NCBI GenBank assembly: GCA_020631545.1
Contig: JAHDHB010000008.1
Location: 1-35,736 of the forward strand
Reading direction: 5' to 3'
Length of the DNA: 35,736 nt
Source: Saprospiraceae bacterium
Lineage (GTDB): Bacteria > Bacteroidota > Bacteroidia > Chitinophagales > Saprospiraceae
Shown: positions 11,374-20,139 of the stretch, piece after piece
Layout: each line of letters opens with the position of its first letter
Position numbering within the stretch: the first letter of the stretch is position 1
Program-made: the position numbers and the translations under genes
Notes under the pieces: generated by a model
Seen by the model: the letters and a program-made list of their open reading frames with translations, nothing else
The model's database searches: none
What the model was told of the DNA's origin: nothing

Positions 11374-12150
11374 CTACATCTTTCCTAATAGTTCAATCGC
11401 CATTTTTTTATATTTTCCTTGTCCTTTCCCTTTCAAAAACGATAATTCATCCACTGCGGCTTCCTTGTTTCCCTTCTTTAGCAGAGCTAATGCCTTGTAC
11501 CATCTTGCGCCATAGACATAGCTACTTTGTCCATCTTGAATGATTCTGTCTAACTGTTCGATAGCCTTTTCCTCATGTCCATTTTCGATAGAAAGATTGC
11601 TGACCGCAGCAAAGTAATACATTTCCATCTTTCCGGTATTCGAACCTAGAATTTGATTCAGCAATTCAGCAGAACGATGGAAATTTTTATTCTCATAAGC
11701 TTGATAAGCTATGGCTTTCTGTTTATCTAGGGAAGAAGTTGTAGAGCGATCTTGTATTAGAAGGACGGGTTGTTCAAAATATTGAGCAAATAAAGCTTCG
11801 CTGGAATTATTTTGTCCTAGCAGCACATCTCGCATCAACCATGCTCCTAACAATAACAAAATGGATGCCGCTGCTGCAAACCAAATTTTTCCAAATCGCC
11901 CTTTTTTTAAGGTAGCCTCTCCCCTACTCTGCGTGTATTTTTGGCCTTCTTGCTTCAATAATTTCCTGAAATTCAATTCATCAGGCTCGCTGGTGACGGC
12001 TGATTGTAATTGACGATGAAACTCGACTTGTGCTGCCAAATCAGCATCCTGATTCAATCGTTCTTTGAATTGTACCAAGGCTTCTCCCGTCAAATTTCCA
12101 CTAAGGAAACGCTCTATCGTATCATACACGATCTGTTTATCTTCGCTCAT
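11374..12150 (-). CDS. Membrane anti-sigma-like protein with TPR-like periplasmic domain
   Basis: A 258-residue protein with a cytoplasmic helical N-terminus (~1-75; IERFLSGNLTGEALVQFKERL resembles the zinc-free anti-sigma helices of this phylum), one membrane span (~89-106, WFAAAASILLLLGAWLM), and a periplasmic helical domain (~125-258) with TPR-like repeats (AELLNQILG, AIEQLDRII). Its start overlaps the sigma-factor stop by ATGA, so the two are translationally coupled. Such pairs usually work as regulator and regulated: the membrane protein holds the sigma factor until an envelope signal. That function is inferred from position and topology. Confidence 0.82.
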   Translation of the reverse strand: MSEDKQIVYDTIERFLSGNLTGEALVQFKERLNQDADLAAQVEFHRQLQSAVTSEPDELNFRKLLKQEGQKYTQSRGEATLKKGRFGKIWFAAAASILLLLGAWLMRDVLLGQNNSSEALFAQYFEQPVLLIQDRSTTSSLDKQKAIAYQAYENKNFHRSAELLNQILGSNTGKMEMYYFAAVSNLSIENGHEEKAIEQLDRIIQDGQSSYVYGARWYKALALLKKGNKEAAVDELSFLKGKGQGKYKKMAIELLGKM

Positions 12151-12722
12151 GAGTTAAGTTCTTTAAATTTGGGATCTGCCTGAATTTTTTCAATCAATTT
12201 CTCCTTGCAATCAAATTTACGCTTACGCGCATATTTCTCACTGATGTTTAGCTTTTCTGCAATTTCACGCATTGAAATGCCTTCAAAAAACAAGCGTAAG
12301 ATGGATTGGCAACTCTCCTTAAGTAAGTGGAATTTTTCTCGAAAAAGCTGCTTTTTTGCATAATTTTCCATAGCTTCTACTACGCCACTTTCCTCACTTA
12401 ATAGCTCTGGAGCAAGAGTTGTTACCCCAATTGACTTCTTTTTTTTGAGTTGATTGCGCCAAAGATTCCGACAAATAGCATAGAGAAAGGTGTAAAAGGA
12501 ACTTGTCAAACGAAAATCATTCGAGCGCACCTTATTGTAAATAATAACTAGAGCTTCTTGGAAAATATCCATTGCCTCCTGCTTATTACCATTATTCTGC
12601 TCAATAAAACGAGTGATACGGGGCATAAAAGCAAGGTACAATTCCTGAATGACTTTAGAATTACCTTCGTTTATTCCTTTGATATAGTATTCGTCCTTAT
12701 GTTTAGTGTTCACTTGTGTCAT
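12147..12722 (-). CDS. ECF-type RNA polymerase sigma factor
   Basis: A 191-residue sigma-70 family protein. Region 2 spans ~25-95 (EAMDIFQEALVIIYNKV and SSFYTFLYAICRNLWRNQL, the -10 recognition helix area). Region 4 spans ~135-182 with a helix-turn-helix (ISMREIAEKLNISEKYARKRK). Regions 1.1 and 3 are absent, as in ECF sigma factors. I use the ATG at 12722 instead of a TTG at 12731. It overlaps the anti-sigma-like gene by 4 bp and diverges from the large secreted protein gene at 12946 across 223 bp; either direction could be autoregulated, but I cannot identify a target promoter by eye. Confidence 0.92.
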   Translation of the reverse strand: MTQVNTKHKDEYYIKGINEGNSKVIQELYLAFMPRITRFIEQNNGNKQEAMDIFQEALVIIYNKVRSNDFRLTSSFYTFLYAICRNLWRNQLKKKKSIGVTTLAPELLSEESGVVEAMENYAKKQLFREKFHLLKESCQSILRLFFEGISMREIAEKLNISEKYARKRKFDCKEKLIEKIQADPKFKELNS

Positions 12723-12945
12723 TGAGAACAAGTTACGAAAAATTTATTATAGAGAAACTCTAGTGGAATAAAAATAGGAAGCTCCCTCAGACCTGCTTAA
12801 TTTTTCTTAGGAAGCAAAAATAAAAAATCTAAAAAAATTAAAAAAATAGGGTAACAACTACCCACTCCAATCTATTAAGAGGCGAAATGAGAAGGTAAAT
12901 CCCCTCTTTCCATTCCTATTTCGTCACTACAACAATATAACTGTA

Positions 12946-15900
12946 ATGAATTTAAAACTATTTAATCCAAGAACGTTTGGAAGTCCTTTCGTTTTTCTAG
13001 TGGTTGTCATGAGTTTTATATCAAGTACAACTTGGGCAGAGCCAAAAGAAGATGCTCTAGTAGCCTGTCTCAAACTTTGCAAAAATTTTGTCTGGCCACT
13101 AGATGCCGCTTGCCAAACGGGCTGTTCTCTAGCCTATCTAGCGGATAAAGCTACCTGTCCTTCCCCTAAAACAGCACGATTTGATAACAGTAACGGAACA
13201 GAAGCAGGCAGTGAGATTATGGCCTACCAGCCTGGAGTCCCTTTTCAAATGAGAGCAGGTGTTTGGGATTACAATTTAGAAACTTTTGTACCCGAAGACC
13301 CAGCGTTTAACAATATCAATTTTTTCATTGTTCCTTTGGAGCAATTTGATGCAGCAGAAAACTTTGATGATATACCTTGGCAATCCATTCCTATCTCGGC
13401 GTATGATGGTTTCTTCTGGGAGATAACCGTTGATCCAAATCTATTACCGACGAATGAAGGTTATGCATTTTTTGTAGAAATGAACCACCTCCAGTTCGGT
13501 ACTCAGCACGGATTTACCATAGCGAATAAGCAAACAGCACAAGCAGGAGCATATTTTTATGGAAATTTTCATGCCCCGATGGGCAATGCCAGCTTGGGAG
13601 TGTCGCCAAACGGTCATTTGCAAGTATCAAATATTGGCTCTTCAGGTTTAGATGGCGTGTCTATTGACTTGGGAGAAGCTGACGGCCTAGGTGTTTCTTT
13701 TGAAACGATGCCAGATTTTTCAAATCCGGGTGCTGCTTTACAAATTGAACAAATCGCTACCACTGGTAATAATGTAGGCTCTCAGAGCACCGCATTTACA
13801 CAAAACTTAGGCAATGGTCAGTATGAAACTACGGTGGATTTTCCTAATGCTAACCTACAAGATGTACGGCTGAATGCTTACCAAAATGGGCAATTAGTTT
13901 ATACCGCAGATAGTATTAATTCCTTTCAATCGCTTACTTATTGGCCTTATTGTGGTTGGCGATATCGGATTAAGTGCGTCCAATTTCTTTGGTGGAGATG
14001 GTATTATAAGGAATGGTACTGGCGCAGTTGGTGGGCGAATACAAATTACCTCATTAATGGCGAAACGGTTCAAGCTGATGAAATTACCATTTATGTAGAA
14101 ACACAAAATGAAGTAGATGGCAACCAACAAACCGTTATTTCTACCAATGGAATTAGTGATTTTGTCATCAATGACGAAACGTTACGTTCCTTTGATCTTG
14201 ACCACCAAACTCCAAGCGTGCATTTTGATAATACAAATGGAGGATTAATCGTTAGCAACATTGGTTCTAGTGGACAGGATGGCGTTTCTATTGATTTAGG
14301 CGAAGAAGCCAAGGAATTCAGCTTAGTTCAGGAGTTCGACCAGCCTCTTTCTGATGGTGCTACCTTGAATTATTCTTCCTATGGCACTTTCAATGGTCAG
14401 TCTAACCAATTATTAGGCATAACGAATTTGACTATGAATGGTGGAAATATGGTTATTTCGTCAGATTTTTCAAGTATTGGTACGACTAACTTCACCGTAT
14501 CGGTTTTAAACAATGGTACGGAAGTTTGTACCCTTAGCAGTCAAAATGGTGTAGCAGCGGAAGTGCAAGCAACCAATAAGACAAGGATAGAAAAATACGA
14601 CCGTGTCACCGAATTACCTGATGGGACGGTGGTGAAAGAAGGGTGCGTAATTTATGAAACTGCTGCTTCCATCCAATTGCCTGATGGCAGTTCTTGTATG
14701 GGGAATGTGGTGATGATTCGACCCGATTCGCCTAGTGCTGATGTAGCAGTTTTGGAAGTATTACAGCTAGATATGTCGAATACGCCTGCTTTTACGATAA
14801 GCAATGAGCAAAAAGGAAATGCAAACAAACAAAAGAGAAGAGCCTACATCAATTGCTTGAGATTATGTCAGAATGCTGTTACGAATTTAGCGCGTTTTTT
14901 GTGTATTCGTCTTTGTAAAATGACCTATCAATCCGCAAAAATCCTGTGTCAATCTAGCAATGCGAGATTCAATTTTGATCCTTCAAGTGATGAAAGTGGA
15001 ACCATTCAATATATTGAAGACCAACCTTTTTCTCTTAGTGCTGGACTTTATGATAGTGATACACAACTTTTCATGGATGATCCTACAGCTATTCTTCATG
15101 TTGGCTTTTACGCTGTTCCTTTGGAAGATGTCTATAATACTCCAGATGCGGATATGCTTCAATGGATGCCTTTGGGAGAAGGAATTTATGCTGGAGACGG
15201 GCAATATACTTTTCCCTTTGATCCTAGAATGCTTCCTGCACAAGAAGGGTATCTGTTTCGTGCAGAAATTATTGATAGAGAATTGAATGTAGAGGAAGAT
15301 TATACCGTCGCTTTGCAACGTCTTCCAGGGTTTCAAGCTACACTTTTCCTACACGGGCCTTATGATGCGGCATCTAGCCTAATGCATGACGACTTGCGCG
15401 CACAAAATTTCCTTCCTTTGGATGAGCCTTACAGTGATTTAGGCTACAGCTATAATCCTCCCCTACCCACTAGTGGCTATTCACTAGCACCCGAAGTACT
15501 TGAAATTGATGATAGTACCGCTATTGTTGATTGGCTGATCCTTGAATTAAGGGATGCCGTTGACCCAACTATTATTTTGGGCTCAAGGCCAGGTTTGCTT
15601 CGTAGAGACGGCCAAATCGTAGATATTGACGGTCGTTCTACGCCTACGTTTGAAGCAGTAGAAGGAGGAATGTACTACATCGCTATACAACATCGAAACC
15701 ACCTACCAGCTATGACCGCGAATCCTGTACTAGTAGATGGTTCACTTCCTAGTTATGATTTTTCAGAGGCTTCGCTACATTTTTCAACACAAGCCCTCAA
15801 AGAAATCAATACTGGAATTTATGGGATGACAAGTGGCGATACGGATGGCAATCAGCAAATAACGGCTAGTGATCGTGCAAATGCTTGGAACGAACGAAAT

Positions 15901-16005
15901 CAAACGGGCTACTTAAGTTCAGACGTAGATATGACCGGAAGTACAAGTGCTAGTGATCGAGCAATTACTTGGAATCATCGGAATTCTACTTTCCTGCTGC
16001 CCTAG
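12946..16005 (+). CDS. Large secreted modular protein with twin Cx3C motifs, Trp-rich segment and dockerin-like C-terminus
   Basis: A 1019-residue exported protein (signal peptide ending near STTWA, residue 31). Order of parts: Cys motif A1 (Cys41, 45, 56, 60, 71) and beta domain (~75-200); beta domain B1 (~225-330, VSNIGSSGLDGVSIDLGE); a segment with nine Trp in residues 333-363; beta domain B2 (~434-545, a second VSNIGSSGQDGVSIDLGE); Cys motif A2 (Cys637, 641, 653, 657, 668) and beta domain (~670-795); then a C-terminal cassette (~797-1019) shared with the protease at 17542. The cassette ends in two calcium-loop-like motifs: D965-x-D967-x-N969 to D976, and D993-x-D995 to D1004. There is no T9SS type A domain and no catalytic motif. 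Export route and function are unknown; a structural or adhesive role is inferred. Confidence 0.85.
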   Translation: MNLKLFNPRTFGSPFVFLVVVMSFISSTTWAEPKEDALVACLKLCKNFVWPLDAACQTGCSLAYLADKATCPSPKTARFDNSNGTEAGSEIMAYQPGVPFQMRAGVWDYNLETFVPEDPAFNNINFFIVPLEQFDAAENFDDIPWQSIPISAYDGFFWEITVDPNLLPTNEGYAFFVEMNHLQFGTQHGFTIANKQTAQAGAYFYGNFHAPMGNASLGVSPNGHLQVSNIGSSGLDGVSIDLGEADGLGVSFETMPDFSNPGAALQIEQIATTGNNVGSQSTAFTQNLGNGQYETTVDFPNANLQDVRLNAYQNGQLVYTADSINSFQSLTYWPYCGWRYRIKCVQFLWWRWYYKEWYWRSWWANTNYLINGETVQADEITIYVETQNEVDGNQQTVISTNGISDFVINDETLRSFDLDHQTPSVHFDNTNGGLIVSNIGSSGQDGVSIDLGEEAKEFSLVQEFDQPLSDGATLNYSSYGTFNGQSNQLLGITNLTMNGGNMVISSDFSSIGTTNFTVSVLNNGTEVCTLSSQNGVAAEVQATNKTRIEKYDRVTELPDGTVVKEGCVIYETAASIQLPDGSSCMGNVVMIRPDSPSADVAVLEVLQLDMSNTPAFTISNEQKGNANKQKRRAYINCLRLCQNAVTNLARFLCIRLCKMTYQSAKILCQSSNARFNFDPSSDESGTIQYIEDQPFSLSAGLYDSDTQLFMDDPTAILHVGFYAVPLEDVYNTPDADMLQWMPLGEGIYAGDGQYTFPFDPRMLPAQEGYLFRAEIIDRELNVEEDYTVALQRLPGFQATLFLHGPYDAASSLMHDDLRAQNFLPLDEPYSDLGYSYNPPLPTSGYSLAPEVLEIDDSTAIVDWLILELRDAVDPTIILGSRPGLLRRDGQIVDIDGRSTPTFEAVEGGMYYIAIQHRNHLPAMTANPVLVDGSLPSYDFSEASLHFSTQALKEINTGIYGMTSGDTDGNQQITASDRANAWNERNQTGYLSSDVDMTGSTSASDRAITWNHRNSTFLLP

Positions 16006-16013
16006 CGTGGCAA

Positions 16014-16102
16014 GTAGAAAGTAGAGGGTATAGCGTAGAAATACCCTAACGCATTGACCTTTAGTAAGAAAATCGAAAAAACTTCTGCTTTCTACCCTCT
16101 AC
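16014..16102. repeat. 7-bp phased repeats in facing orientation
   Basis: Four in-phase heptamers (GTAGAAA, GTAGAGG, GTATAGC, GTAGAAA) fill 16014-16041. The complementary strand of 16082-16102 carries three more (GTAGAGG, GTAGAAA, GCAGAAG). The two blocks face each other and could pair in RNA. The same heptamers recur at 30359-30379. Confidence 0.65.
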
Positions 16103-16151
16103 AAAGTTTTGCCAAACCCTAACAGACCTTTATTTTTTGAAATGTGTGGGA

Positions 16152-16183
16152 GTTATCGGTTAATTTTTAAGTTAACTGATAAC
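16152..16183 (+). promoter_or_regulatory. Hairpin in the leader of the T9SS protein gene
   Basis: A 12-bp stem, GTTATCGGTTAA (16152-16163) with TTAACTGATAAC (16172-16183), containing one G-U pair that forms only in a plus-strand transcript. It ends 24 bases before the ATG at 16208, so it could affect translation or be a dyad operator. No T-run follows. Confidence 0.4.
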
Positions 16184-16207
16184 AGCACCACTTAAAATCA
16201 ATTTATT

Positions 16208-17428
16208 ATGAACAATATACGACTTCATACACTCCTTTTTCTAGTAACAATATTACTAGGATACAATACTTCTTTTGCACAAGCATTGACGACAGTAAGC
16301 GTTGAAAATCAAGCAGTCATTGGGACTGATTTATATTTCGATGTTTATTTAAGAACTACAGCAGGAAGTAGTGATGATTTGTACTTAGGAGATTCAGATT
16401 TTCTATTCAATTTTAATCATGGGAATTTCACTTCACCAACATTGACAAAAGTGCCCAATCCTAGTCCTATAGCTCCTTTTGCACAAAATGGATATTGTAC
16501 GTTTACTTCAAGAACTTATACTAGTATTATTGATCTATCGACAGCAGCAGTTGTGCAGAAAGGTTATTATGACAAGACTAGTACAACCATTAGTGATAAC
16601 AAACTGATCATTAGTGTCAGCTCGCCAACGCCTTCTGACGGGACAGCTTTCAATGAAATGTTGGCTAAGATTGATGGTACATTGTTAACTCATCGACTTG
16701 GACGATTCAAAGTGAGTGGAATTAGTAATCCAACAGGTACTGCGGGATTAGCTTGGATTGGTTGTGTAGCTGGTTCGAGTACAGAATTGCATACGATGGT
16801 TGATAGTGCCCCATTCCTCCAGACCAAAATCGCCTGTGGAGACTTAACCACCATTAACAGTATCAATCTTCTTTTACCTGTTGAATTATCGAATTTTGAA
16901 GTAAAGAAATTAGGTCGAAACCAAAGCAAGCTGAATTGGGTGACTGCCTCCGAAATGAATGTCGATTATTTTACAATTCAACGTAGCCAAAATGGTGAAG
17001 ATTGGAAAAAACTTGGCCAAGTGGCTGCTAAAGGAAATAGCACGACAAGTCAAGCTTATGAATTCATCGATGCCCATCCTATTTCAGGAATCAATTATTA
17101 CCGATTGCGTATCGTAGATGAAGATGGTGTATTTGAAAATTCAGAAATTGTTGCTCTTCGCTTTTCGGAAGAAGGAAGCCATTCAACCATAAATCTATTT
17201 CCAAATCCTGTTTCCAATACCTTGACTATTGATTATTCAAAAATAGAATCGACCATTTCCTTCGTTCGTATCTTGGATGTAAACGGACAAGTGATAAAAG
17301 AGCGCAATGTAGAAACCAATACCAATCAGCAGCTTTTAATAAACGTTCATGATTTATCCGCTGGAATTTACTTCGTATCTTTAATAGGCCAAGAGGCAAT
17401 CATTTCGCAGAAATTTGTGAAGCGATAG
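16208..17428 (+). CDS. Surface protein with cohesin-like beta domain and T9SS type A sorting domain
   Basis: A 406-residue exported protein (signal peptide cut near TSFA, residue 24). Residues ~27-205 form a beta domain whose opening (GTDLYFDVYLRTTAGSSDD, then LGDSDFLFNFNHGNF) and later strand GRFKVSGIS resemble the layout of cohesin modules. Residues ~220-320 are the fibronectin-III-like domain (LPVELSNFEV, WVTASEMNVDYFTIQRS) that often precedes a T9SS tail. Residues 329-406 are a T9SS type A C-terminal domain (LFPNPVSNTLTID ... LSAGIYFVSL ... QKFVKR), which directs outer-membrane transport and surface attachment. It lies between two genes whose products end in dockerin-like motifs. The sorting domain is sure; the cohesin resemblance is by eye only. 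Confidence 0.88.
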   Translation: MNNIRLHTLLFLVTILLGYNTSFAQALTTVSVENQAVIGTDLYFDVYLRTTAGSSDDLYLGDSDFLFNFNHGNFTSPTLTKVPNPSPIAPFAQNGYCTFTSRTYTSIIDLSTAAVVQKGYYDKTSTTISDNKLIISVSSPTPSDGTAFNEMLAKIDGTLLTHRLGRFKVSGISNPTGTAGLAWIGCVAGSSTELHTMVDSAPFLQTKIACGDLTTINSINLLLPVELSNFEVKKLGRNQSKLNWVTASEMNVDYFTIQRSQNGEDWKKLGQVAAKGNSTTSQAYEFIDAHPISGINYYRLRIVDEDGVFENSEIVALRFSEEGSHSTINLFPNPVSNTLTIDYSKIESTISFVRILDVNGQVIKERNVETNTNQQLLINVHDLSAGIYFVSLIGQEAIISQKFVKR

Positions 17429-17455
17429 CTTTTTTACTGCCTAATGTGTAGTGGT

Positions 17456-17508
17456 AGCATTTCTGTTTCTTTTGTCCAACTTTTGTAGGGGGAAGAAACG
17501 GAAATGCT
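17456..17508 (+). terminator. Hairpin between the T9SS protein and protease genes
   Basis: A 16-bp stem (17456-17471 with 17493-17508) encloses a 21-base loop. The only non-Watson-Crick pair is a U-G that forms in plus-strand RNA but would be A-C in the opposite RNA, hinting that the structure works in the plus transcript. The following T-run is short, so it may be a partial terminator, attenuator or mRNA-stability element. Confidence 0.5.
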
Positions 17509-17541
17509 TTCCCAAATTTATCCAAAAAAAGATTTTGCCCT

Positions 17542-20139
17542 ATGAACATTATTATAACTTACTATCAACGTATTTTTCTAGCTATCACACTAGTAATGAG
17601 TGTTTTTTCAAGTAGCGCACAGGTAAATGTCCAAGACTCCTTGGCTCTAGTGGATTTTTATAACAGCACGAATGGTGATGAATGGAATGATAATTCCAAT
17701 TGGCTTAATGGCCCAGTGGATACTTGGATTGGAGTTGTTTTAGATCAGCCTAATAGTGGGGATAGGGTAATCGGTATTGCTTTGCCTGAAAACAATCTAT
17801 CGGGAAGCATTCCAAATTCCATCCTTATGTTGGACATGCTATTTTTTTTAGAAATTCCTTTTAATAATATCACTACCCTACCAGATTTGTCGTCCTTGAA
17901 TGCTACTTTAAATGTATTAGATGTAGCTGGTAATAGATTGAGAATTAACGATATTGCTCAGAATCAATTTCCTCAAAATTACAACTATTCACCTCAGTTT
18001 GTAGGCATGGAACAAGATACCTTGGTTTGTGAAGGCGAATCGATTTTAATTCCATCTTTGCTAGAAGCTACCCAAGGACAACCTACTTGGTTTTACAATA
18101 ATAATCCCATTACCAACACTTCCAACGTAACATCGAATGGGGGATTGTACTTTGAGTTTTTCGAAAAAGAGAATCAAGGATTTTATCATTGTGAAATAGC
18201 AGATAATTCCATTTTTCCACCCTTGGATATCATCCGTTTGCCCTTGGAAATCATTAGTTGTTGTCGGGATTCTCTTGGAGCACCTTTTTATTGCAATCAA
18301 TTAATTGTTAAATTTCAAGATGGTGTAACGCCATTTACGAAGGAAGTCGTTCGAAATCAATATAAGGCCAGTTTGTTAGACTCTGTATTGTGTTTGGATA
18401 TTGAGCTGTGGAGTGTGCCTGACAGTGTTTTTCTACAAGGAGATACCTTATCGACAATTGAGGAAATCAAGGACAGAACAAGGACACAAACCGAAATCGA
18501 AGAAGTCGATTTTAACCATTTTACTGAATTTGAGGAAAAGAAAAAAGCATTCAAAAAACGTAAACGGGCTAATTCTTCTTTAAAAAGAAGAATAAAGAAG
18601 GTGAAGGAAGGCCATAAAACGACTAGTGATAGTCTCCTAGTAGCGATTATCGATACGGGAGTAGATTATGACCATTTGGAGCTAACAGATTTAATGCATT
18701 ACAATGATTTAGAAGTATTTGATGGAACAGATACCGATGGAAATTGCATTGTTGATGATGTTATAGGATTTAATTATGTCGATCCGATGTCTTCTGATCC
18801 GATGGATGATCACAGCCACGGTACACATATCGCAGGAATAATCGCAGATAGCTTGCCGGTGGGAACTAGCACTAGGATTTTACCATTAAAAACACATGAT
18901 TATCATGGCCGAAGTTCGACATTTAATTTGATAAGTTCGATTTACTACGCTTGCCATAAGGGCGCACGGGTGCTTAATATTAGTAGTGGGTATGCTGGAA
19001 TTGAATCGACTATTTTGAAAGGAGCGATAGCAATGGTAGGAGATAGCTGTGATGCCGTAGTAGTGACTTCTTCTGGAAATAAAGGCGTTGATAATGATAT
19101 GCTTGCACATTATCCTTCTAGTTTCGACCTCCCCAATATCGTTTCTGTTGCTGCCTTAGATTCCGACTTAGATGAGCTGGCTTTCTATTCCAATTTGGGG
19201 TTGATTTCTGTGGATTTGGCTGCTCCAGGGACTTTTATTTCAAGCACACTGCCTGATAATGCTTATGGCGTGAAAAGCGGTACTTCCATGTCGGCAGGTT
19301 TTGTTTCTAGTGCTGCGGCCATTTTGTTGGAAGAATATCCTGAGATTCGTTCTGATGAATTGATTACTTGCCTATTTTCTTCTGTAGATCCTTTAGTTGA
19401 TTTAGCAGGAAAGATGAGCACGGGAGGCAAATTGAACATTCCTGCTACTAGGACTTGCCTAGAGAATTTGGAGCCTGCATTACGTATTCGTTTTTTCCTA
19501 GAGGGGTCTTATATCGATGGATTGATGAAGGATGACTTGAAAACGGAAGGAGTTTTATCCACTGTTGAACCTTATACCGCGCTTGGTCATTCCCTCTCGA
19601 ATACAGGCGCTGCTATTGCCCCAGATTTATTAGCAGCAGGAGGCGATTCTTCGATTGTAGATTGGGTTTTGGTGCAATTGCATGATAAAACGGATCGTTC
19701 CATTGTACTTGCTAGTCAAGCAGTAGTAGTGCTGGCAGATGGTCGATGCATTGGCCTTGATGGCCGCGAAGTTTTATCTTTTCCAAGTCTATCTTACGAT
19801 GACTATTATGTGTCCATCATTCATCGAAATCATCTTCCACTAATGACACAAGATCCTATTCTAGTAGATCGATCTTATTCGCTAATAGACTTTACGAATG
19901 GAAGTGTGAGTTTGTATAAAGATAGTGCGCAAAAATCTTTCGGAGATGGAAATTGGGGAGCAGTAGCTGGTGATGCTGATGGGAATAGCAGCGTGAGTGC
20001 TAGTGATCGAGCAGCGACATGGAATGATAGAAATCAAACAGGCTATAAACGAAGCGATGTGAATTTGGATGGCAGCGTGAGTGCTGCGGATCGAGCCATT
20101 ACTTGGAATAATAGGAATCGGGAGGGGGCATTACCATGA
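17542..20139 (+). CDS. Secreted subtilisin-like protease with LRR, Ig-like and dockerin-like domains
   Basis: An 865-residue exported protease (signal peptide ending near SSSAQ, residue 27). Domains: plant-type leucine-rich repeat cap and repeats (~31-140; NGDEWNDNSNWL, LPENNLSGSIPNSI); Ig-like domain with paired Cys163 and Cys217 (~155-240); a propeptide-like region (~250-330); a strongly basic linker (~332-355); and a peptidase S8 domain (~364-640) with catalytic Asp371 (IIDTG), His426 (HSHGTHIAG), oxyanion Asn513 (SSGN) and Ser582 (SGTSMSAG). The C-terminal cassette (~645-865) is shared with the 12946 protein and ends in calcium loops D811-x-D813-x-N815 to D822 and D839-x-N841-x-D843 to D850. 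The full triad predicts activity. Substrate unknown. No type A sorting domain is present. Confidence 0.92.
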   Translation: MNIIITYYQRIFLAITLVMSVFSSSAQVNVQDSLALVDFYNSTNGDEWNDNSNWLNGPVDTWIGVVLDQPNSGDRVIGIALPENNLSGSIPNSILMLDMLFFLEIPFNNITTLPDLSSLNATLNVLDVAGNRLRINDIAQNQFPQNYNYSPQFVGMEQDTLVCEGESILIPSLLEATQGQPTWFYNNNPITNTSNVTSNGGLYFEFFEKENQGFYHCEIADNSIFPPLDIIRLPLEIISCCRDSLGAPFYCNQLIVKFQDGVTPFTKEVVRNQYKASLLDSVLCLDIELWSVPDSVFLQGDTLSTIEEIKDRTRTQTEIEEVDFNHFTEFEEKKKAFKKRKRANSSLKRRIKKVKEGHKTTSDSLLVAIIDTGVDYDHLELTDLMHYNDLEVFDGTDTDGNCIVDDVIGFNYVDPMSSDPMDDHSHGTHIAGIIADSLPVGTSTRILPLKTHDYHGRSSTFNLISSIYYACHKGARVLNISSGYAGIESTILKGAIAMVGDSCDAVVVTSSGNKGVDNDMLAHYPSSFDLPNIVSVAALDSDLDELAFYSNLGLISVDLAAPGTFISSTLPDNAYGVKSGTSMSAGFVSSAAAILLEEYPEIRSDELITCLFSSVDPLVDLAGKMSTGGKLNIPATRTCLENLEPALRIRFFLEGSYIDGLMKDDLKTEGVLSTVEPYTALGHSLSNTGAAIAPDLLAAGGDSSIVDWVLVQLHDKTDRSIVLASQAVVVLADGRCIGLDGREVLSFPSLSYDDYYVSIIHRNHLPLMTQDPILVDRSYSLIDFTNGSVSLYKDSAQKSFGDGNWGAVAGDADGNSSVSASDRAATWNDRNQTGYKRSDVNLDGSVSAADRAITWNNRNREGALP

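Follow-up and report, generated by a model that had tools for sequence, protein, structure and literature searches.

The cohesin/X-dockerin pairs of cellulosomes belong to Firmicutes and to S-layer homology (SLH) or sortase anchors; the locus described here belongs to bacteria with a type IX secretion system (T9SS) and uses a T9SS tail. It lies in a stretch of 35,736 nucleotides (the window) from contig JAHDHB010000008.1 of the Saprospiraceae bacterium assembly GCA_020631545.1, in which three consecutive genes encode two proteins ending in an X-dockerin-like module (XDoc) and, between them, a protein with a predicted cohesin-fold N-terminal domain (N-domain) and a T9SS type A tail. Large dockerin sets have been described before: in the excerpts consulted, Ruminococcus flavefaciens FD-1 is credited with 222 dockerin proteins, which form several sequence groups and include peptidases (PMC2930009). 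Excerpts of a second study describe non-cellulosomal cohesins and dockerins in archaea of the anaerobic methanotrophic (ANME) groups (PMC9012536). A genome report states, in the portion consulted, that cohesins and dockerins were not identified, in line with other Bacteroidetes genomes (PMC5831590), and a term search of the main text of a cellulosome review (PMC12484212) did not return 'Bacteroidetes', 'Bacteroidota' or 'type IX'. Among the titles and abstract openings of the open-access matches listed, no X-dockerin/cohesin system in Saprospiraceae or with T9SS anchors was found; a 2009 survey (Peer et al.) may mention one. Our analysis indicates that the locus probably represents a cohesin/X-dockerin system rebuilt for T9SS bacteria, in which XDoc-bearing cargo would dock non-covalently on T9SS-anchored cohesin-fold receptors.

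Organization of the three-gene locus

The features of the locus, with the basis for each, are the following.

12946..16005, +: exported Cys/Trp-rich protein, 1019 aa, with an X-dockerin-like module at its end (open reading frame, ORF; own-genome search)
15346..16002, +: X-dockerin-like C-terminal module of the first protein (own-genome search E 2.8e-54; 45% identity to the protease copy)
15838..15873, +: calcium-loop 1 of the first protein, D965-D976 (loop pattern, canonical)
15922..15957, +: calcium-loop 2 of the first protein, D993-D1004, T at position 5 (relaxed pattern only)
16208..17428, +: surface-anchored protein, 406 aa, with signal peptide, predicted cohesin-fold N-domain, linker region and T9SS type A tail (ORF, Pfam/TIGRFAM-type profiles, predicted fold)
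16277..16855, +: predicted cohesin-fold N-domain of the 16208 protein, residues 24-216 (AlphaFold model, PDB realignment, Foldseek)
17195..17425, +: T9SS type A sorting/anchor tail of the 16208 protein, residues 330-406 (PF18962 and TIGR04183 over cut-off)
17542..20139, +: exported subtilisin-like protease, 865 aa, with an X-dockerin-like module at its end (ORF, Pfam)
18631..19374, +: subtilase catalytic domain, residues 364-611 (PF00082 E 3.6e-33)
19474..20136, +: X-dockerin-like C-terminal module of the protease, modelled as an X-like beta domain packed on a two-loop dockerin (AlphaFold, PDB, Foldseek)
19972..20007, +: calcium-loop 1 of the protease, D811-D822 (strict loop pattern)
20056..20091, +: calcium-loop 2 of the protease, D839-D850 (strict loop pattern)

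The initial annotation had described three consecutive exported proteins, and signal-peptide-like starts can indeed be read directly from the sequence on all three + strand ORFs. The T9SS type A anchor that it assigned to the middle protein was recovered with PF18962 (E 2.5e-14, 53.8 bits vs a cut-off of 27) and TIGR04183 (E 4.2e-13, 49.1 bits vs a cut-off of 23), and its identification of the last protein as subtilisin-like agrees with the PF00082 match. SprA (TIGR04189), a T9SS translocon protein, was found in 8 of the 8 genomes searched, including that of the window (G000).

Both outer proteins end in a module with a predicted X-dockerin-like fold

Paired loops of the dockerin pattern had been proposed for the ends of both outer proteins. 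Those of the protease (D811-A-D-G-N-S-S-V-S-A-S-D822 and D839-V-N-L-D-G-S-V-S-A-A-D850) are exactly as described, and loop 1 of the first protein is canonical; loop 2 of that protein (D993-V-D-M-T-G-S-T-S-A-S-D1004) departs from the pattern, having T at position 5. Each loop pair is the end of a two-domain module of about 215 residues common to both proteins. As read from the ORFs, it opens with a beta domain, in which a D-W pair is invariant and the motif H-R-N-H recurs, and continues with two loop-helix repeats up to the stop codon.

With the 214 C-terminal residues of the protease as query, the genome of the window (6.38 Mb in 674 contigs) yielded 74 matches with E up to 1; it holds 71 distinct XDoc ends on varied cargo. 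The strict double-loop pattern was present in 19 of the 71 distinct module tails, whereas none of the 33 control ORF ends had it and 7100 shuffled sequences gave it 4 times, so the loop pair is not a product of chance; a relaxed form of the pattern was present in 40 of the 71. By motif, 72 distinct tails of the genome comprise 45 of the WNxRN type, 20 of the NNG type and 7 others. One ORF (L082) stops inside the beta domain and has no loops. When named genomes were scanned with the module alone, 29 loci were obtained, in which 48 of 49 module ORFs end no more than 4 residues after the module (L188 lies at a contig end); the exception, L168, continues for 228 residues.

The AlphaFold model of the protease module (pLDDT 96.2, pTM 0.92, from an alignment of 35 sequences) was compared with PDB structures, 994 chains being realigned. 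The best 8 entries were X-dockerin or type II cohesin-dockerin complexes, with Z 10.9-9.9 and fits of 3.2-3.6 Å over 140-145 residues, and the next row was unrelated (Z 5.4). The top match was 4wi0_B (Z 10.9, root-mean-square deviation 3.6 Å over 145 residues); 3kcp and 4fl4, also among the best 8, presumably hold an X-dockerin. Foldseek returned the same leading entries, with 4u3s_B at E 4.1e-5. Because the predicted fold is closest to X-dockerin and type II dockerin chains, we refer to the module as X-dockerin-like. The dockerin-like ends of the initial annotation thus find a counterpart in the modelled protease end and in the 45% identical end of the first protein. Pfam recognises neither the module nor the N-domain of the 16208 protein at cut-off, Dockerin_1 scoring 18.3 bits on the protease end against a threshold of 22.9.

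The N-domain of the middle protein is modelled with a cohesin fold

The N-domain (residues 24-216) was modelled by AlphaFold with pLDDT 81.5 and pTM 0.81 from an alignment of 10 sequences. The first 28 PDB rows obtained with this model were cohesins or cohesin-bearing chains (Z 10.6-8.4), led by 6kgf_C (Z 10.6, 2.9 Å over 134 residues); in the rows for 3kcp and 4fl4, we take the aligned part to be the cohesin. The best Foldseek match was 5lxv_C, the ScaC cohesin of Ruminococcus flavefaciens (E 1.9e-5, probability 1.00). According to the model, the N-domain has the jelly-roll beta-sandwich fold of cohesins, as the initial annotation had supposed, and not the non-cohesin fold that would have spoken against it. 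The 16208 protein has a single such domain and is not a multi-cohesin scaffoldin; Pfam gave no cohesin match in it, and a genome scan with the N-domain as query found no relatives.

In profile comparisons, the N-domain family matched its type 2 relatives at 97.6% (E 2.8e-12). A profile of cluster 0, which consists of 15 XDoc-neighbour domains and 4 type 2 rows, matched the N-domain at 95.5% and the cohesins of relatives at 89.2% (E 2.2e-6), and still matched the latter at 86.5%, over 33 columns, after the cluster had been widened by nine sequences. A chain of profiles thus appears to join the N-domain family to cohesins indirectly.

Gene order around XDoc genes

The genus of the window comprises three genomes, in which 22 N-domain genes were found independently of the module; their flanks were read over about 1.5 kb, with some ORFs beyond. 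An XDoc gene lies directly upstream on the same strand in 6 of the 22, XDoc is fused to the N-domain protein in 5 of the 22, and one or the other holds for 10. Conversely, among the 29 loci found with the module alone, an N-domain gene is directly downstream in six (L162, L164, L177, L181, L184 and L190), of which L184 is seemingly the same locus as one of the 22. When nine upstream XDoc proteins were compared without their modules, only L164 and L184 formed a similar pair. By eye, we take upstream XDoc proteins to include LamG-like, amylase-like and sorbosone-dehydrogenase-like ones, and that of L190 itself starts with an N-domain. A pairing of XDoc subtype with N-domain type within the genus was considered and dropped, since the upstream XDocs are too few (WNxRN in 5 of 6, with the window's own typed from its sequence, vs 45 of 72 genome tails).

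In the 29 loci, a same-strand neighbour with a T9SS tail was found downstream of XDoc genes in 6 of 46 cases and upstream in 0 of 40, against a background of 14 of 223 non-XDoc genes; the tail model was built from 11 tails and misses type B tails. Whole-genome counts of T9SS tails in 15 genomes ranged from 72 to at least 150.

In XDoc-poor genomes, the next gene downstream often had a signal-peptide-like start and a T9SS tail. The sample comprised 24 relatives, none with more than 11 module matches, in regions covering most matches, and 22 of the 24 had countable ends. There, 44 of 58 XDoc ends had a same-strand gene within 400 nt downstream, 39 of these being non-XDoc genes; a signal-peptide-like start was seen in 36 of the 39, and of the 23 that were complete in the region, 16 had a T9SS type A tail. 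The count of 58 leaves out seven regions of the XDoc-rich genomes G005, G059 and G075 (L251-L255, L257, L258), and the rule used to call neighbours misses at least one gene, as no neighbour is given for L290 and yet a cohesin-like match follows closely (G028 C973:2880-3338). A further 20 loci, taken as a second sample from 15 other members of the class, contained 22 XDoc ends, 19 of them with a close downstream neighbour; a T9SS tail was present in 8 of the 13 complete non-XDoc neighbours, and 10 of the 19 neighbours matched the N-domain or cluster 0 profile. In this sample no partner-like neighbour was found at L328, L329, L343 and L344, and the neighbour at L333 was unrelated.

Tail variants and partner domains were associated, canonical tails occurring with cluster 0 in 15 of 15 cases and KYQG/KFDNP-like tails with cluster 1 in 8 of 8, in a classification made by eye after the data had been seen and uncorrected for relatedness. 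Since the partner domains of clusters 1, 2 and 4 gave a negative profile comparison with cohesins, we do not call them cohesins. Downstream of variant XDoc ends (L243-L248, L298, L299; L242, L249) we observed beta domains profile-unrelated to cohesins (clusters 1 and 4), possibly further receptor classes.

Distribution of XDoc modules and cohesin-like domains

The module was found in 30 of 80 relatives, with the best 38 matches per genome scored; at first look, G001 and G002 gave 225 and 214 candidates. Among 295 genomes drawn from the class it was found in 36, counting that of the window. The named genomes that hold the closest copies are for the most part metagenome-assembled genomes (MAGs) of Saprospiraceae. 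MAGs bearing the labels Melioribacteraceae and Sphingobacteriaceae have XDoc modules as well (L187, L188, L190).

N-domain profiles of growing breadth detected 3, 6 and 23 of the 80 genomes, the broadest being termed A10, which gave 31 matches in the window's own genome. Both A10 and XDoc were present in 20 genomes, XDoc only in 10 and A10 only in 3 (Fisher p 9e-9, or 2e-4 once the 11 genomes contributing profile rows are removed), figures that come from non-independent genomes and from a profile built largely from genes beside XDocs. Seven of the ten XDoc-only genomes were sampled, and these showed variant tails ('KYQG', 'KFDNP', 'KYNG', 'RATGPP'), G004 and G006 having one canonical-looking end each besides (L305 and L302); the end read in G046 (L309) has no loops, and G040 and G050 have no countable end.

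The initial annotation had named, as an outcome that would weaken it, genomes with many dockerin-like ends and no such beta domain. This does describe the narrow N-domain family, found in only 3 of 80 genomes with a 6-row profile, and ceases to do so once remote relatives are included: every module-rich genome among the 80 (G000, G001, G002, G005, G059, G075) has broad cohesin-like matches. An intermediate conclusion that the beta domain is absent from dockerin-rich genomes was withdrawn, later loci having shown the 6-row profile to be too narrow. The survey that the annotation had proposed thus came out in its favour, as the gene after a module gene is often cohesin-like and/or T9SS-tailed and the module co-occurs with the broad profile; overall, its inference is largely supported.

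Cohesins recognisable by Pfam showed no clear tracking of XDoc, being present in 23 of 30 XDoc genomes vs 27 of 50 others (p 0.057). Secreted proteins of XDoc-poor relatives contain Pfam-type cohesin domains in arrays (L154, L156, L157). Elsewhere in the window's genome, three paralogues of 865-926 aa (L119, 1451-4228, +; L120, 901-3648, +; L121, 1557-4151, -) each have Pfam cohesin matches, over cut-off in two of them. By eye, they show a dockerin-like stretch between cohesin-like domains and a T9SS-like tail, and form a set distinct from the XDoc/16208 type.

Cargo of the XDoc proteins

Cargo was scanned with Pfam in 60 of 64 XDoc proteins, the four longest being left out, and the best 25 of 77 families were covered. 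Among these 25 families, Ig, cadherin, LRR, PKD and SprB repeats were the commonest, and no glycoside hydrolase was found. S8 peptidases occurred in four of the 60 proteins; an M36 peptidase, a sulfatase and an endonuclease were each seen in a single protein. DUF1501 was seen in 3 of the 60. A simple signal-peptide rule was passed by 45 of 57 XDoc ORFs with an upstream stop vs 3 of 19 other window proteins, although more start positions were tried in the XDoc ORFs than in the controls. Two XDoc proteins (L086, L087) have a twin-arginine-like MKRRDFLK start and not an ordinary signal peptide. The XDoc cargo has no T9SS tail, the module standing in its place. Proteins with both a cohesin-like domain and XDoc exist, and members of the N-domain family end in either a T9SS-like tail or XDoc.

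Other features of the locus

The 12946 protein is internally duplicated (residues 34-193 vs 630-789, 30% identity, E 2.9e-20), carries the motif VSNIGSSG.DGVSIDLGE twice (residues 227 and 436) and has a striking Trp/Tyr-rich stretch at residues 332-363. Directly upstream of its gene, and divergent from it, 11374-12731 (-) holds a gene for a sigma-70-like sigma factor of the extracytoplasmic function (ECF) type, together with a second gene, whose product has a single membrane-like stretch and a TPR match below cut-off. The two are possibly a regulator pair.

Discussion

The succession of a plug gene and a socket-type gene, recurring in relatives, points to a hitherto overlooked means of attaching proteins to cells. 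In the cohesin/X-dockerin system that we propose as the probable explanation, cargo proteins would carry the XDoc module at the C-terminus, and their partners an N-terminal cohesin-fold domain together with a C-terminal T9SS tail that would export and anchor them. Once at the cell surface, the cargo would be mounted non-covalently through its dockerin part, which, loaded with calcium, would bind the cohesin-fold domain. The observations behind this proposal are the predicted folds of XDoc and of the N-domain, the T9SS tail, the recurring gene order with its differing cargo and the co-occurrence; the binding itself, its calcium dependence and the surface location of the complex are inferred. 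From its position, the 16208 protein would receive its two neighbours rather than other XDoc proteins of the cell; with 71 distinct XDoc ends and 31 broad cohesin-like matches in the genome, a description limited to two neighbours docking on the middle protein is probably too restrictive.

Several observations weigh against this proposal. The match of the N-domain to cohesins rests on a predicted model, in whose structure list CBM3 domains follow close behind the cohesins, from Z 8.3. Direct profile comparison of the N-domain family with the cohesins of eight relatives was negative (1.8%; positive control with three cohesin domains of this genome, 85.7%), as were the comparisons of the type 2 relatives alone with cohesins (3.8%) and of the widened cluster with this genome's own cohesins (1.0%). 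The genome also holds other cohesins that Pfam does recognise. In the stretch read, 12 of the 22 N-domain genes of the genus have no XDoc beside or within them, and the XDoc ends in the seven regions of G005, G059 and G075 have no receptor gene directly downstream. Finally, the proposal leaves the export route of the XDoc cargo unexplained: as these proteins end in XDoc instead of a T9SS tail, they would be exported by another route or else carried out by the partner. Our confidence is set slightly lower on account of the negative profile results and of the XDoc-rich regions without a receptor neighbour.

The position of XDoc at the extreme C-terminus of many exported proteins would also be expected if it were a sorting or anchoring signal, an alternative T9SS tail in need of no cohesin partner, and the two kinds of ending within the N-domain family fit such a role. 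In addition, 8qb1_C, which we take to be a T9SS C-terminal domain, is in the structure list of the module, though only at Z 3.9 and on the X part. We regard this explanation as improbable, since the closest folds are X-dockerin chains, a dockerin vs T9SS-tail profile comparison was negative (0.3%), and the gene directly downstream is often T9SS-tailed in XDoc-poor genomes.

Alternatively, XDoc could be a true dockerin received by other cohesins of the genome, in the multi-cohesin T9SS proteins on contigs C499, C596 and C575, and not by the 16208 protein. Pfam cohesins do occur there in proteins with T9SS-like tails; however, their distribution does not clearly follow that of XDoc, and the XDoc-rich genomes G002, G005, G059 and G075 have none at E 1e-3. 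On distribution these receptors are not favoured, and we give this arrangement little credence. Least probable, in our view very much so, is a carbohydrate-binding role for the N-domain as a CBM2/CBM3-like carbohydrate-binding module (CBM), with a gene order reflecting merely the co-expression of exported proteins. CBM3 structures do stand just below the cohesins, and the Foldseek list includes CBM-bearing cellulases; nevertheless, 28 cohesin rows precede the first CBM, the upstream XDoc proteins are mostly of unrelated cargo, and the T9SS-tailed neighbour lies downstream and not upstream.

A bolder extension of the cohesin/X-dockerin proposal, which we consider rather unlikely, is that XDoc acts in trans as a T9SS passport: tail-less cargo would bind a partner with a cohesin fold and a T9SS tail, exit with it and be retained by it on the cell surface. 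There would then be several distinct plug/receptor classes, pairing canonical-loop XDocs with cohesin-like domains, 'KYQG/KFDNP' ends with the cluster 1 beta domain and 'RATGPP' ends with the cluster 4 domain. Chaining through proteins that combine a cohesin-like domain with XDoc could allow the coat to grow.

If docking on cohesin-fold receptors is real, the richest genomes would carry dozens of X-dockerin-like proteins and matching cohesin-fold receptors on a different anchor, in a system that, in the proteins of the window, Pfam models at cut-off miss. Such docking would account for how exported proteins lacking a T9SS tail could stay at the surface, put names on large families that are now without annotation and provide new plug/socket pairs for protein display.

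Comparison with known systems

The 16208 protein resembles other T9SS type A tail proteins in having this tail over cut-off in a genome that encodes SprA; unlike them, the cargo ends in XDoc, and its display would run through a partner. With respect to the ANME archaea, the cohesins and dockerins in the excerpts of PMC9012536 were found by standard domain libraries and are set in an S-layer rather than a T9SS context, and neither an X-dockerin nor a conserved plug-receptor gene pair is described in those excerpts. R. flavefaciens FD-1, as far as the consulted excerpts of PMC2930009 go, shares with the present genome a very large dockerin set with several groups and peptidases; unlike its fibre-degrading cellulosome, the commonest cargo families here are adhesin-like repeats, with some peptidases and other enzymes.

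The type II cohesin/X-dockerin pairs of cellulosomes also count among the closest known systems, represented by the XDoc of C. thermocellum CipA (2b59, 5g5d) and of Acetivibrio ScaA (4wi0, 4u3s). As in these, a C-terminal X-like beta domain is predicted to pack on a two-loop dockerin, and the candidate partner is a cohesin-fold domain on a cell-anchored protein. Unlike in cellulosomes, XDoc sits directly on many different cargo proteins instead of a scaffoldin, there is a single cohesin-fold domain in the middle protein, and neither the window's module nor the N-domain is detected by Pfam at cut-off. Non-cellulosomal cohesins and dockerins are known elsewhere; what is new here is a candidate cohesin/X-dockerin system outside cellulosomes in a T9SS setting.

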